Shown here one piece after another: positions 7,992-44,874 of a stretch of DNA of 64,000 nucleotides. Made by a program: the position numbers and the translations under genes. Numbering within the stretch: the first letter of the stretch is position 1; the number at the start of each line of letters is the position of its first letter. A model generated the notes under the pieces. That model was not told the DNA's origin and made no database searches. It saw only the letters and a list, made by a program, of their open reading frames with translations. Origin of the DNA: Oxalicibacterium faecigallinarum (GTDB taxonomy: Bacteria; Pseudomonadota; Gammaproteobacteria; Burkholderiales; Burkholderiaceae_D); the NCBI RefSeq assembly GCF_014635705.1, contig NZ_BMDI01000001.1, positions 124,001 through 188,000 of the forward strand. The letters are read 5' to 3'.

Positions 7992-8050
7992 AAAAATCCC
8001 GAGTGAAAACCAGATGATGGTTTGGTCTCGGGATTTTTCCTTTCCAAGGA
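7992..8050 (+). terminator. Terminator after serS
   Basis: A 12-bp stem (AAAAATCCCGAG / CTCGGGATTTTT) with a long loop of about 33 nt and a T-rich 3' side, located 32 bp after the serS stop codon. Confidence 0.75.
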
Positions 8051-8246
8051 GCGAAAATGTAATGCTCCACATTCATCGCAGTGCTGATCGCGCAAAGTTT
8101 TTCTGCATCACTATTGCGTCAGGGCACGTAATCCTTGTTTGATTGCCCGCATCCTCGTTCATGGCTATATTCTGTGCGTGCACATTCGGTTTGTCGCTGA
8201 ACAAGCAGAATGCGCGCATCAACTATAAAACCATGAAGGAGACACC

Positions 8247-9038
8247 ATGACTGAAATCAGTAGACGTGGCATGCTTCAGGCCGCCGGTTTGTTGACGGTG
8301 GGTGCGATGACTGGCTGCGCATCATCGCGCAGTAGTAGTAACGAACAGGCACTTTTCTCTGTTACACCAACAACGATCCCGATTGTCGGCCGCACGGACC
8401 GATTTCCCGTACGACGTATTTACTGCATAGGTCGCAACTATGCTGCGCATGCGCGCGAGATGGGTTCCGATCCGACACGCGAGCCGCCTTTCTTCTTCCA
8501 GAAACCAAGTGATGCAATCCAGTTTGTGCCGCCGGGACAGACAGTGGATCATCCCTATCCCACGCTGACCAAGAACTATCATTACGAAATTGAACTGGTC
8601 GCCGCGCTGCACAAAGGCGGCAAGGACATTCCGGTCGAAACGGCGTTGCAGCATGTCTTTGGTTATGCCGTCGGACTGGACATGACGCGTCGTGATCTGC
8701 AGGCAGCGATGAAGAAGGAAGAGAAGCCCTGGGAAATCGGCAAGAGCTTCGACAAGTCGGCACCGATCGGTCCCTTGCATCCTGCCGCCAGCATTGGCAA
8801 CTTCACCGAAGGGAAGATCTGGCTGAAGGTCAATGGTCAGGTCAAGCAAAGCTCTGATCTGAAGAACATGATCTGGTCGGTCGCCGAGCAGATCAGCAAT
8901 TTGTCCCGGGCATTTGAGCTGATGCCGGGCGACATCATCTATTCCGGGACACCAGAAAACGTTGGCCCGGTGGTACGCGGCGATGTGATGGAAGGCTATA
9001 TCGAGCGACTGCCGAGTATTTCACTCAAGGTGGTGTGA
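8247..9038 (+). CDS. Fumarylacetoacetate hydrolase-family protein with Tat/lipoprotein-type signal
   Basis: A 263-residue protein. The N terminus SRRGMLQAAGLLTVGAMTGC (5-24) looks like a twin-arginine signal ending in a lipobox-like Cys24. From about residue 55 it is a FAH-fold enzyme: IGRNYAAHAREMG (61-73), PFFFQKPSDA (81-90), the metal ligands E114-x-E116 in HYEIELV and D145 in GLDMTRRD, then GKSFDKSAPIGP and SGTPENVGPVVRGD. Family members hydrolyse or decarboxylate 1,3-dioxo acids in aromatic catabolism and are normally cytoplasmic, so an exported form is unusual. A GAAGGAG-like ribosome site precedes the ATG. It is flanked by the serS terminator and its own terminator, so it is monocistronic. 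The substrate is unknown. Confidence 0.85.
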   Translation: MTEISRRGMLQAAGLLTVGAMTGCASSRSSSNEQALFSVTPTTIPIVGRTDRFPVRRIYCIGRNYAAHAREMGSDPTREPPFFFQKPSDAIQFVPPGQTVDHPYPTLTKNYHYEIELVAALHKGGKDIPVETALQHVFGYAVGLDMTRRDLQAAMKKEEKPWEIGKSFDKSAPIGPLHPAASIGNFTEGKIWLKVNGQVKQSSDLKNMIWSVAEQISNLSRAFELMPGDIIYSGTPENVGPVVRGDVMEGYIERLPSISLKVV

Positions 9039-40685: not shown

Positions 40686-40716
40686 AAAAGGGATGCCGCG
40701 GCATCCCTTTTTATTT
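40686..40716 (+). terminator. Terminator after the DUF2721 gene
   Basis: A stem AAAAGGGATGCC / GGCATCCCTTTT with a minimal GC-rich loop and a T-rich tail, immediately after the stop codon. It may also act for soxR on the opposite strand (soxR ends at 40743). Confidence 0.85.
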
Positions 40717-40742: not shown

Positions 40743-41213
40743 TCAAGGTCGTTCGAGAATGCGTGGCCCACTTCCTTCCTTGCCGAGGCGATCATCGGGA
40801 TTACGCAACGGACAATCTTCCAGTGACAGGCAGCCACAGCCGATGCATTGATCCAGCTCATCGCGCAAACGTGTCAGGCGTTCGATACGTTCATTCATGC
40901 TTTCCCGCCAGTGCGATGACAGTTTCTCCCAGTCCTTTGACGTCAGCTTGCTGCCTTGCGGATAGCTGTCCAGCGTCGTCTTGATCTCTTCCAGTGAAAT
41001 ACCGGCGCGTTGTGCAACTTTGATGATGGCGATGCGACGTAAAACGCCAGCAGGAAAGCGTCGTTGATTACCCGCTGTGCGTATGCTCTGGATCAAGCCT
41101 TTGGATTCATAGAAATGAATAGCTGAAACGGCGACACCGCTACGCGTGGCTACTTCGCCAATTGTTAGCTGGCGCGAAGATACGGAAACCGGCGTCGATA
41201 TTATCCCTGCCAT
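40743..41213 (-). CDS. soxR: Redox-sensitive transcriptional activator SoxR
   Basis: A 156-residue MerR-family activator that senses redox-cycling compounds through a [2Fe-2S] cluster. The winged-helix N terminus is [25 protein letters not shown] (16-40), followed by RRFP. A dimerisation helix leads to the cluster motif C123-x2-C126-x-C128-x5-C134. ATG 41213 has GAGGT upstream; an earlier in-frame start would run through the operator. It is divergent from a doxX-like gene, and the shared 125-bp gap contains a near-perfect SoxR box, whose edge lies only 10 bp from this ATG, so autoregulation is likely. Confidence 0.96.
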
Positions 41214-41218
41214 GTTAC

Positions 41219-41249
41219 TTGACCTCAAGTTAAGTTGAGGTTTTATACT
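41219..41249 (+). promoter_or_regulatory. SoxR-controlled promoter with SoxR box
   Basis: -35 TTGACC (41219-41224) and -10 TATACT (41244-41249) are 19 bp apart, the over-long spacing used by MerR-family activators. Between them lies CCTCAAGTTAAGTTGAGG (41223-41240), one base from a perfect 18-bp palindrome of the known SoxR-box type. It points toward the doxX-like gene. Confidence 0.92.
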
Positions 41250-41338
41250 GCGATCCGACTTATTTGACAACCCTGATAAGCGTGCCGGTGCTCTTTTTGT
41301 GAGCCGACGCTAATCGTCAACGCAAGCGGAGAGAGTGG

Positions 41339-41782
41339 ATGCAAGGGCAGATGGAGGCAGTACTGGAAAGTCGTTGGTTATGGCTGACCGCACGCGTGTT
41401 GATCGTCGTGGTGTTTGCTGCATCCGGTTTGGCAAAGCTCATTGATTTTGATGGCGGGTTGGCAGAAATGCGTCAGGCGGGATTGGAGCCGGCGTGGCTG
41501 TTCAATATCCTGGTCATCGCTGTCTTGCTCGTGGGAGCATTGCTGATCCTGCTGGATCGCGCCTTGTGGCTGGGTGCTGCTGCCCTTGCTGTCTTCCTTG
41601 CACTGACGATTGTGATCGTGCATCACTTCTGGTCACTGCCGGAACCGCAAGCCATGCTTTCAATGTTCCTTGCGCTGGAACATTTGTCCGTGATCGGTGG
41701 ATTGATTGCTGTGGCCATCGCGAGTCATCTGCGCAATCAGTGGTTGCAGGCGATGCAGCGCTGGAATACATCTACCAACTGA
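41339..41782 (+). CDS. DoxX-family membrane protein, predicted SoxR target
   Basis: 147 residues with four predicted membrane helices (about 15-35, 52-72, 76-95, 110-130). The first contains the family-like LTARVLIVVVFAASGLAKLIDF. DoxX-type proteins are small quinone- or redox-associated membrane proteins, including thiosulfate:quinone oxidoreductase subunits and MauE/DoxX carriers. The exact activity here is unknown. ATG 41339 has GGAGAGAG upstream. It lies 90 bp downstream of a SoxR-type promoter, so it is expected to be induced by redox-cycling agents. Single-gene transcript with its own terminator. Confidence 0.88.
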   Translation: MQGQMEAVLESRWLWLTARVLIVVVFAASGLAKLIDFDGGLAEMRQAGLEPAWLFNILVIAVLLVGALLILLDRALWLGAAALAVFLALTIVIVHHFWSLPEPQAMLSMFLALEHLSVIGGLIAVAIASHLRNQWLQAMQRWNTSTN

Positions 41783-41784
41783 TA

Positions 41785-41830
41785 AATAAGCATCCCGAAG
41801 ACGACTAGCGTTTTCGGGATGTTTATTTTC
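41785..41830 (+). terminator. Terminator after the DoxX-family gene
   Basis: A long stem AATAAGCATCCCGAAGACG / CGTTTTCGGGATGTTTATT with two G-T pairs, followed by T-rich sequence, directly after the stop codon. It also faces the end of the YeeE-family gene. Confidence 0.85.
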
Positions 41831-41844
41831 TGATTGAGCGTGAT

Positions 41845-43014
41845 CTAGCTATTCCAGCCAAAGCGAACGCGCGCCCGCCACCCCAGCCAGAGGCCGCCAA
41901 ACATGAAAACGGCGAAGATCCAGCCGGATGCCGCGCCAGCCATGATGCCGGATAACAGCGTGCCAACGGTGCAGCCGAGTGCAACCATCGATCCCCAGCC
42001 CATCAGGACGCCGCCGAGTAGGGCGCGCACGACTTCAAACAGGCGTGGGCGACGCAGTTTGAAATCACCGGCAGACAAGGCCGCAGCGAGAGAGCCGATG
42101 ATCAATGCCACGATGAAAGCGCCGTTCGGTGACCACAAGGTTTCCTTGATGCGTGTTGCACAACCGGAGAAGGTATCGAGGCCTTCCAGTCGCGTGGGGA
42201 GCAGATGCGCACTGTCAGCTGTGGTACGCGCCAGACTACCGAGTTCTGCCGTCACGCCCAGCGGGCCAAGACGGAAATAGGCCAGTACGCCGATAAAGCC
42301 AACCAGAATCCCGCCGGCATACGTCGGCCAGCGTCGTTGCCACGGATCGCTATTGGGGGCGCTTTCCGGTTTGCGATGCTGCCGCCACAACCAGATCGCA
42401 ACGGCTGCCAGCGCAAACAGTTGCAGCGCCACCGATCCACCGTACCCGAGATGATGTGGCAGCCAGACAATTGGCGCTTCCTGAATCGCAGCCAGGTACA
42501 GGGTGTTCCAGCTGAGAAAGCCGAGGAAGAAGCCAAACAAGGTGCCGAGCAGCGCAAAAGGTGACAGCACCGAGCCTTCGCCAAGGCGATACAGATGCGC
42601 GCTGATGCACGAGCCTGACAAGGCCATGCCGAGTCCGAAGCTGAACGCGCCTGCGCCCAGGACCCAGCTGATCGGACCAATATGCGCTTGTGGCGGCAGT
42701 CTGCCCGGTGCTGGTACTGGCAGGAAGGCACCAAATACCAGGTGATAGCCAAGAATGCCAACCGCGAGCGCGACCACAATCCCGAGCAGGCCACGCACAT
42801 CGCGCCGCTCGTAAAAGTCACGACTGACGCAAAAGAAGCAAAAGCGAGAGCGTTGAAGAACGATACCGAATGCCGTGCCGAACAGCGCCGCTAAAGCAAG
42901 ATCGCGCCCGCTGTCGGCAAAAGAGCCGAGAGCGAGCGCGAACAGGATTGCAGCAATGAAGGCAATGGCAGACGGCACCAACCGCCGCAAGGGCGGTAAT
43001 GCCGCATCAGCCAT
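41845..43014 (-). CDS. YeeE/YedE-family sulfur-compound transporter
   Basis: 389 residues, about nine to ten membrane helices. It has the repeated YeeE/YedE halves with conserved cysteines in GSCISAHLYRLGEGS, FSGCATRIKE and ALGCTVGTLLSGIMAG; in the thiosulfate channel TsuA such cysteines line the pore. It starts two bases after the stop of a periplasmic rhodanese gene, so the two are translationally coupled. This suggests uptake of thiosulfate or a related sulfane-sulfur compound linked to periplasmic sulfur transfer. The substrate is inferred from family and operon only. Confidence 0.9.
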   Translation of the reverse strand: MADAALPPLRRLVPSAIAFIAAILFALALGSFADSGRDLALAALFGTAFGIVLQRSRFCFFCVSRDFYERRDVRGLLGIVVALAVGILGYHLVFGAFLPVPAPGRLPPQAHIGPISWVLGAGAFSFGLGMALSGSCISAHLYRLGEGSVLSPFALLGTLFGFFLGFLSWNTLYLAAIQEAPIVWLPHHLGYGGSVALQLFALAAVAIWLWRQHRKPESAPNSDPWQRRWPTYAGGILVGFIGVLAYFRLGPLGVTAELGSLARTTADSAHLLPTRLEGLDTFSGCATRIKETLWSPNGAFIVALIIGSLAAALSAGDFKLRRPRLFEVVRALLGGVLMGWGSMVALGCTVGTLLSGIMAGAASGWIFAVFMFGGLWLGWRARVRFGWNS

Positions 43015-43016
43015 CG

Positions 43017-43931
43017 TTATTTACCGCCCCATACCGTACCAGCAGGGTTGGAAACAGGGACGCCAACCGCGTTACCGTACTCGGTCCACGAACCGTCGTA
43101 GTTGCGCACGTCATAGCCCAGCAGTTTGGACAAGGCAAACCAGGTGTGGCTCGAGCGCTCGCCGATACGGCAGTAGGTGATGACCGGCTTGGTGCCATCG
43201 ATGCCAACTGCACCATAGATTTTTTTCAGCTCTTCCACCGATTTGAAGGTGCCGTCAGCTGCCACTGCCTGACCCCAGGGAACGTTGGCTGCGCCTGGCA
43301 CGTGGCCGGCACGGACTGCCAGTTCCTGAACGCCTGCCGGTGCGAAGATCTTGCCGCTGTATTCGTCAGCCGAACGGATGTCGACCAGTTTGGCATCACT
43401 TTTCTTTTCAGCCACGGCGACGACGTCAGCCAGACGGGCGCGCAGTTTTTGGTTGGCCGGGGAAACCTTGATGTTGCCGGCAGCGTGCTGCTTGGCCACT
43501 GGGGTCAGCGGACGATTTTCTGCTTCCCATTTTTTTCGGCCGCCATCGAGCAGTTTGACGTTCTTGACGCCATAGATATCGAATACCCATGCGCCCCAGG
43601 CTGCAAACCAGTTGTTGGTGTCGCCGTACAGAACGACAGTGCTGTCGTTGTTGACACCGGCATTGCGCAGCAGTTTTTCAAAGTCCTGCTGGCTGGCGAT
43701 ATCACGTCGGACCGGATCGACCAGATCGGTATGCCACGACACGTTGGTCGCGCCCTGGATGTGACCGCGCTCAAACAGGCCTGGATTCACGCTGACTTCG
43801 ATCAGACGCAGTTTCGGGTCATTGATGTTTTTTTCCAGCCAGTCGGTGCTGACGAGGAAGTCGCTAGGCGCGGCATGTGCTGTACCAAACAGCAGGGTGC
43901 CTGCGACGAGCAGGGTTTTGACGAGCTTCAT
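43017..43931 (-). CDS. Periplasmic thiosulfate sulfurtransferase (two-domain rhodanese)
   Basis: 304 residues. The N-terminal MKLVKTLLVAGTLLFGTAHA is a Sec signal peptide. Two rhodanese domains follow: the first (about 26-145) has no Cys in its active loop (YGDTNNWFA) and is structural. The second (about 180-295) has C254 in ITYCRIGERS, the catalytic loop type for thiosulfate or mercaptopyruvate. It transfers sulfane sulfur to thiol or cyanide acceptors. It is first in an operon with the YeeE-family transporter. The upstream 200 bp is AT-rich and shared with the divergent carbonic anhydrase gene. Confidence 0.94.
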   Translation of the reverse strand: MKLVKTLLVAGTLLFGTAHAAPSDFLVSTDWLEKNINDPKLRLIEVSVNPGLFERGHIQGATNVSWHTDLVDPVRRDIASQQDFEKLLRNAGVNNDSTVVLYGDTNNWFAAWGAWVFDIYGVKNVKLLDGGRKKWEAENRPLTPVAKQHAAGNIKVSPANQKLRARLADVVAVAEKKSDAKLVDIRSADEYSGKIFAPAGVQELAVRAGHVPGAANVPWGQAVAADGTFKSVEELKKIYGAVGIDGTKPVITYCRIGERSSHTWFALSKLLGYDVRNYDGSWTEYGNAVGVPVSNPAGTVWGGK

Positions 43932-44136
43932 GGGTTCTCCGTAGTTGTTAAGAAATCGTTAGTCACATTAATCAAACGATTGCCAGTCGACAACGAAGCT
44001 TTTTCAATATCGATATGCAAAAACCGAATGAAGACTGCCTCTCTTGGTAACAAACTTCCTGTTTTAACAATTGTTAAATATGTTAAATTATCGTAATTAA
44101 ATTGCAAATTTATCAACGATGCTGAAAAGGAGCGTT

Positions 44137-44874
44137 ATGCAGTCAAGTCGTAAAAACGGGTGGATGAAGTGTGCAGGGGCAGTCGCCTTGATGACCGCCT
44201 TGGCAGGGTGTGCAACACAGGGCGAACAGCAGGCAACCAAAGTCCGACCGCCAGTGATGACCAGTGAGACCTTGAAGGACATGTCGGCTGATCAGGCAAT
44301 CCAGCTTTTGCAGGAAGGCAATGCGCGTTTTGTGTCCGGCACGCCGACACCGCATAACTATCGGCAACAGGTCAGGACCACGGGCTCAAACGGCCAGTTT
44401 CCGTTTGCCAGCATTGTGAGTTGCATTGACTCCCGCTCGGCGCCTTCCGTGATTTTCGATTTGGGTATTGGGGACATTTTCAGTACCCGCGTCGCAGGTA
44501 ACGTGATCAATGAAGATATTCTCGGCAGTCTCGAATACGGCTCCAAGGTCGTCGGTACCAAACTGATTGTGGTGTTGGGTCACACGTCATGTGGTGCCGT
44601 CAAAGGCGCTTGCGACAACGTGGAAATGGGCAATCTGAGTGGCCTGTTGGCCAAGATTCGTCCGGCGGTCGACGTGACTGCTGATGTGAATGGTCCGGAT
44701 CGGAGTTCACATAATTATCGGTTTGTAGACGCCGTGGCCGAAAATAACGTCAGGCTGATGGTGCAATCCATGCATGAGAAAAGTCCCGTGCTGCGAGAAA
44801 TGGCGGCCAGCGGCCAAATCAAGATCGTTGGCGCCATGCTCGATGTCAAGACTGGCAAGGTCAAGTTTCTTTAA
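44137..44874 (+). CDS. Beta-class carbonic anhydrase with lipoprotein signal
   Basis: 245 residues from ATG 44137, with AAGGAG upstream. The N terminus ends in the lipobox LAGC (Cys25), so the enzyme is predicted to be lipid-anchored in the periplasm. The catalytic part has zinc ligands C96 and D98-x-R100 (SCIDSR), H149 and C152 (GHTSCGA). It interconverts CO2 and bicarbonate. Most beta-type enzymes are cytoplasmic, so export is notable, though exported beta forms are known in proteobacteria. It is divergent from the rhodanese operon and ends in a bidirectional terminator. Confidence 0.93.
   Translation: MQSSRKNGWMKCAGAVALMTALAGCATQGEQQATKVRPPVMTSETLKDMSADQAIQLLQEGNARFVSGTPTPHNYRQQVRTTGSNGQFPFASIVSCIDSRSAPSVIFDLGIGDIFSTRVAGNVINEDILGSLEYGSKVVGTKLIVVLGHTSCGAVKGACDNVEMGNLSGLLAKIRPAVDVTADVNGPDRSSHNYRFVDAVAENNVRLMVQSMHEKSPVLREMAASGQIKIVGAMLDVKTGKVKFL

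Follow-up and report, generated by a model that had tools for sequence, protein, structure and literature searches.

In Pseudomonas aeruginosa, phenazines act through SoxR, which switches on the mexGHI-opmD operon (PMC9272787). MexG, the product of its first gene, is a DoxX protein, and control of a DoxX protein by SoxR is thus already known from this case. The role of MexG is puzzling. It heads a phenazine-efflux operon and is reported to bind the quinolone signals PQS and HHQ (PMC9228389), yet it is also reported to be dispensable, with normal export of 5-Me-PCA and PMS described in its absence (PMC7927275).

Here we analyze a soxR locus within the window, that is, the whole 64-kb stretch of DNA under study. 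The direct divergent target of soxR at this locus is mexG and not soxS. We propose, with a probability of roughly 0.7, that the locus is a self-contained and probably horizontally acquired SoxR-mexG module, in which redox compounds would act on SoxR, SoxR on mexG alone, and MexG independently of a pump. The features are as follows.

40686–40711, plus strand: terminator-like hairpin separating the upstream DUF2721 gene from soxR, from a pattern scan in which about one such site is expected by chance in the region.
40743–41213, minus strand: soxR, 156 aa, MerR-family [2Fe-2S] redox sensor (TIGR01950, match to E. coli SoxR 2zhg, CX2CXCX5C).
41219–41249, plus strand: mexG promoter, TTGACC, 19-bp spacer, TATACT; single occurrence in the window.
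41223–41240, plus strand: SoxR box CCTCAAGTTAAGTTGAGG, one mismatch to the classic box; unique in the genome.
41339–41782, plus strand: mexG orthologue by sequence (PF07681, MexG clade), 147 aa, with a DoxX domain, predicted membrane-length helices and no cysteine.
41784–41828, both strands: strong bidirectional terminator-like hairpin ending mexG, −28.2 kcal/mol, z −8.5.

The preliminary description had assigned a soxR gene with a divergent DoxX-family target, and profile searches bear out both assignments. The SoxR protein scores 217 bits against NCBIfam TIGR01950, whose equivalog cut-off is 116.9, and the product of the target gene scores 61.5 bits against DoxX PF07681, whose gathering cut-off is 23.6. 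SoxR also matches the solved E. coli SoxR structure 2zhg (E 8e-56), and the [2Fe-2S] ligand motif CX2CXCX5C in its translation aligns with 2zhg. It is the sole SoxR above threshold in the genome. The likeliest start is the ATG at 41213, leaving 9 bases between the start codon and the box; the TTG at 41270 given in the list of open reading frames is an unlikely start. The two genes lie back to back, soxR on the minus strand and the DoxX-domain gene on the plus strand.

Between them, the box CCTCAAGTTAAGTTGAGG differs at one position from the classic 18-bp SoxR box CCTCAAGTTAACTTGAGG, so the near-perfect box described earlier holds. It lies in the spacer between a −35 element (TTGACC, 41219–41224) and a −10 element (TATACT, 41244–41249) that are 19 bp apart, as had been claimed, and the promoter is directed away from soxR. 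This is the arrangement of a SoxR-dependent promoter, an 18-bp box within an over-long −35/−10 spacer of 19–20 bp. The pattern of TTGACC, 19 bp and TATACT occurs once across the 64-kb window. From base composition, 0.002 sites per genome with at most one mismatch to the 18-mer are expected, and 8e-8 in the intergenic gap; when only the 14 outer bases are specified, the expectation at this stringency rises to 0.6 sites per genome, which makes the box less rare. Searching the 3.326-Mb genome revealed no second site within three mismatches of the classic 18-mer, and with the 14 outer bases no site with fewer than two mismatches besides 41223–41240. The proposal of a single adjacent target agrees with this, as no second box is found in the genome. 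Aligning mexG promoters showed the box conserved 5' of mexG in 11 other records, with an invariant TTGACC and a 19-bp spacing in 12 of 12 promoters, the window included; for three of these (PA7, Alcanivorax and Xenorhabdus TH1), the stretch examined contains no soxR. The box looks functional, because it adjoins soxR and is conserved in other lineages.

The DoxX protein shares 63% identity over 137 residues with MexG of P. aeruginosa PA7 in a scan of public genomes, and the PA7 counterpart is directly followed by a membrane-fusion protein gene, that is, mexG and then mexH. Our tree places the window protein together with MexG in a 17-row clade (support 100/99) that excludes other DoxX proteins. 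By this phylogeny, the gene at 41339–41782 is an orthologue of mexG, the first gene of mexGHI-opmD. Other relatives occur in Alcanivorax, Massilia, Xenorhabdus, Acinetobacter and two members of the same order, and plasmid-borne ones in P. nitroreducens, Xenorhabdus and Klebsiella. In the predicted model of MexG, helices of membrane length appear, with a moderate mean pLDDT of 74.9. Comparing this model, of modest confidence, with solved structures gave no informative match, and a sequence search of the PDB with MexG returned nothing usable.

A quinone- or thiol-linked response had been suggested for this protein. A link to quinones, quinolones or phenazines fits better, because PQS and HHQ are reported ligands of MexG from P. 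aeruginosa (PMC9228389). The thiol part is unlikely to hold for the DoxX protein itself. The window MexG has no cysteine, which makes thiol chemistry by MexG unlikely, and no cysteine is conserved among its relatives.

A membrane complex of DoxX with SseA and SodA has been described in mycobacteria. At the present locus, genes for a YedE-type sulfur transporter and a secreted sulfurtransferase (rhodanese) adjoin mexG at 41845–43931, and MexG might join their products in a DoxX-sulfurtransferase thiol redox complex. We consider such a complex extremely improbable. The sulfur genes are convergent to mexG with a terminator between, the YedE-rhodanese pair is conserved without mexG in seven further genus genomes (8 of 13 genus genomes carry the pair), mexG relatives elsewhere have other neighbors, and a protein lacking cysteine is a poor candidate for thiol chemistry. 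An operon of mexG with the sulfur genes is rejected for the same orientation and terminator, and the pair appears independent of soxR-mexG. Further on, a beta-carbonic-anhydrase-like gene (44119–44874) has a lipoprotein-type N-terminus as judged by eye, and its relatives adjoin a rhodanese gene in two genus genomes.

The hairpin at 41784–41828 carries T-rich tails, and the gene beyond it is the convergent yedE. Because of this stable 3' hairpin and the convergent orientation of the next gene, mexG most likely forms a transcription unit of its own. The gene order of a mexGHI-opmD pump is not found, since yedE follows mexG; across the genome, the absence of the pump was judged by MexH. The MexH search revealed no orthologue in the genome, the best match reaching 27%, and about 10 MexH-like adaptor proteins with 25–29% identity. 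A hidden pump under the same SoxR is rejected given the lack of a further box and of a MexH orthologue in the genome.

On the other hand, MexG could still serve another, unlinked RND pump as an accessory subunit, and SoxR would then induce the accessory part only. The roughly 10 MexH-like adaptors leave room for such a partner and count against a pump-independent MexG, and several lineages have mexG and mexH in one operon. We regard this explanation as unlikely: no adaptor is a MexH orthologue (best 27%), the single SoxR box of the genome is the one 5' of mexG and not near any of them, and MexHI-OpmD export is reported not to depend on MexG (PMC7927275).

The search of related genomes for the gene pair and its box, proposed in the preliminary description, found the same arrangement of divergent soxR, box and mexG in eight other records among those sampled. 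The hosts are Massilia HP4, X. hominickii, X. mauleonii, A. guillouiae, a P. nitroreducens plasmid, P. mirabilis H63 and two genomes of the same order (G782 and G840). In this small sample, mexH follows mexG in three of the eight (A. guillouiae, X. mauleonii and P. mirabilis), as it also does in PA7, and is not beside mexG in the other five (Massilia, X. hominickii, the two order-level genomes and P. nitroreducens), nor in the window. The pump-less pair, here and in several lineages, is the less ordinary part of our finding. We found no description of a pump-less soxR-mexG pair among the open-access papers searched, and it may still be described elsewhere.

The presence of mexH behind mexG in part of the relatives, together with the scattering of the pump-less state over the MexG tree, may also hint at decay, in which loss of the pump genes followed acquisition and left mexG behind as a neutral remnant. 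This seems very unlikely to us, as both genes, the box, the promoter and the terminator are intact. Moreover, six records, counting the window, carry a soxR-mexG pair without the pump, and their MexG proteins differ by 31–44% from the window protein, yet their frames and boxes are intact.

Several plasmids carry related genes. The Xenorhabdus TH1 plasmid (7001–14405 of the record) has a mexG with a SoxR box 1.4 kb ahead of a phenazine biosynthesis cluster. Klebsiella plasmids, mostly typed as conjugative, contain a MexG-like DoxX gene (7992–8402 of the record) adjoining LysE-, GST- and Clp-protease-like genes, and no SoxR box lies within the 16-kb stretch examined. On the P. nitroreducens plasmid (6440–6835 and 10182–10628 of the record), a soxR missing from the listed annotation is divergent to mexG; a second DoxX paralogue lies 3 kb away, beside a gene set similar to that of the Klebsiella plasmids.

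At such similarity, mexG is rare. With the own genome counted, it is present in 3 of the 399 genomes searched for the order and in 6 of the 398 for the phylum, and the 12 other genus genomes lack it. In the SoxR tree, the window protein joins a clade of SoxRs linked to mexG in other lineages (support 94/91) and is separate from the eight SoxRs of its genus that were included. The AU test, whose strength here is only moderate, rejected a SoxR constrained to its genus (p 0.0285) and did not reject one constrained to the wider family (p 0.10). Judging translations by eye, the soxR genes of the genus face a flavodoxin-like, reductase-type gene, and those of the wider family face various small genes. 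The rarity of mexG, the SoxR clade, the AU result and the different targets of the genus soxR genes make acquisition of soxR-mexG by horizontal transfer likely, though not proven. Meanwhile, base composition at the locus is ordinary, with no foreign signature seen, and the nearest genus genome did not offer a clean empty site for comparison, as its gene content differs beyond yedE.

For the induction, the class of ligand and the action of MexG, we infer the following course for the SoxR-mexG module. The [2Fe-2S] cluster of SoxR would be oxidized by redox-active compounds (phenazines, quinones or similar) that probably come from other microbes. The oxidized SoxR would untwist the over-long 19-bp spacer and turn on mexG alone. 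MexG, a small DoxX protein, would then build up in the inner membrane and bind or otherwise handle a hydrophobic redox compound there, independently of the MexHI-OpmD pump. The early steps, SoxR oxidation and promoter opening, are drawn from established SoxR biology, and the action of MexG is our own proposal. The Xenorhabdus mexG, which has a SoxR box and adjoins a phenazine gene cluster, favors the module. As for production by the host itself, no match to PhzA/B was found in the genome; the control genomes likewise gave none, and the missing match is therefore no proof of absence.

Because stand-alone SoxR-mexG pairs occur in several lineages, we tentatively speculate that MexG may by itself detoxify or capture redox-active compounds, without MexHI-OpmD, and that the pair may spread as a minimal two-gene protection cassette. 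Since SoxR here is predicted to control MexG and nothing else recognizable, the role of MexG becomes testable without the pump. The locus also suggests what the neighbors of phenazine producers use for protection.

Compared with SoxR and mexGHI-opmD of P. aeruginosa, the window shares a SoxR box in a 19-bp spacer directly 5' of mexG and a MexG that is 63% identical (PA7). In contrast, its soxR lies next to mexG in divergent orientation, and neither the locus nor the genome has a mexH. The E. coli soxR-soxS pair is likewise divergent and has a near-identical box with a 19-bp spacer, whereas the target in the window is a membrane protein instead of the regulator SoxS. The soxR modules of the same genus have the same box and one divergent target, but their SoxR belongs to another clade and their target is flavodoxin-like and reductase-type by eye. 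The soxR-mexGH(I) loci of A. guillouiae, X. mauleonii and P. mirabilis resemble the window in the divergent soxR, the box and mexG, and the SoxRs form one group; there, however, mexH follows mexG, and in P. mirabilis mexI as well.
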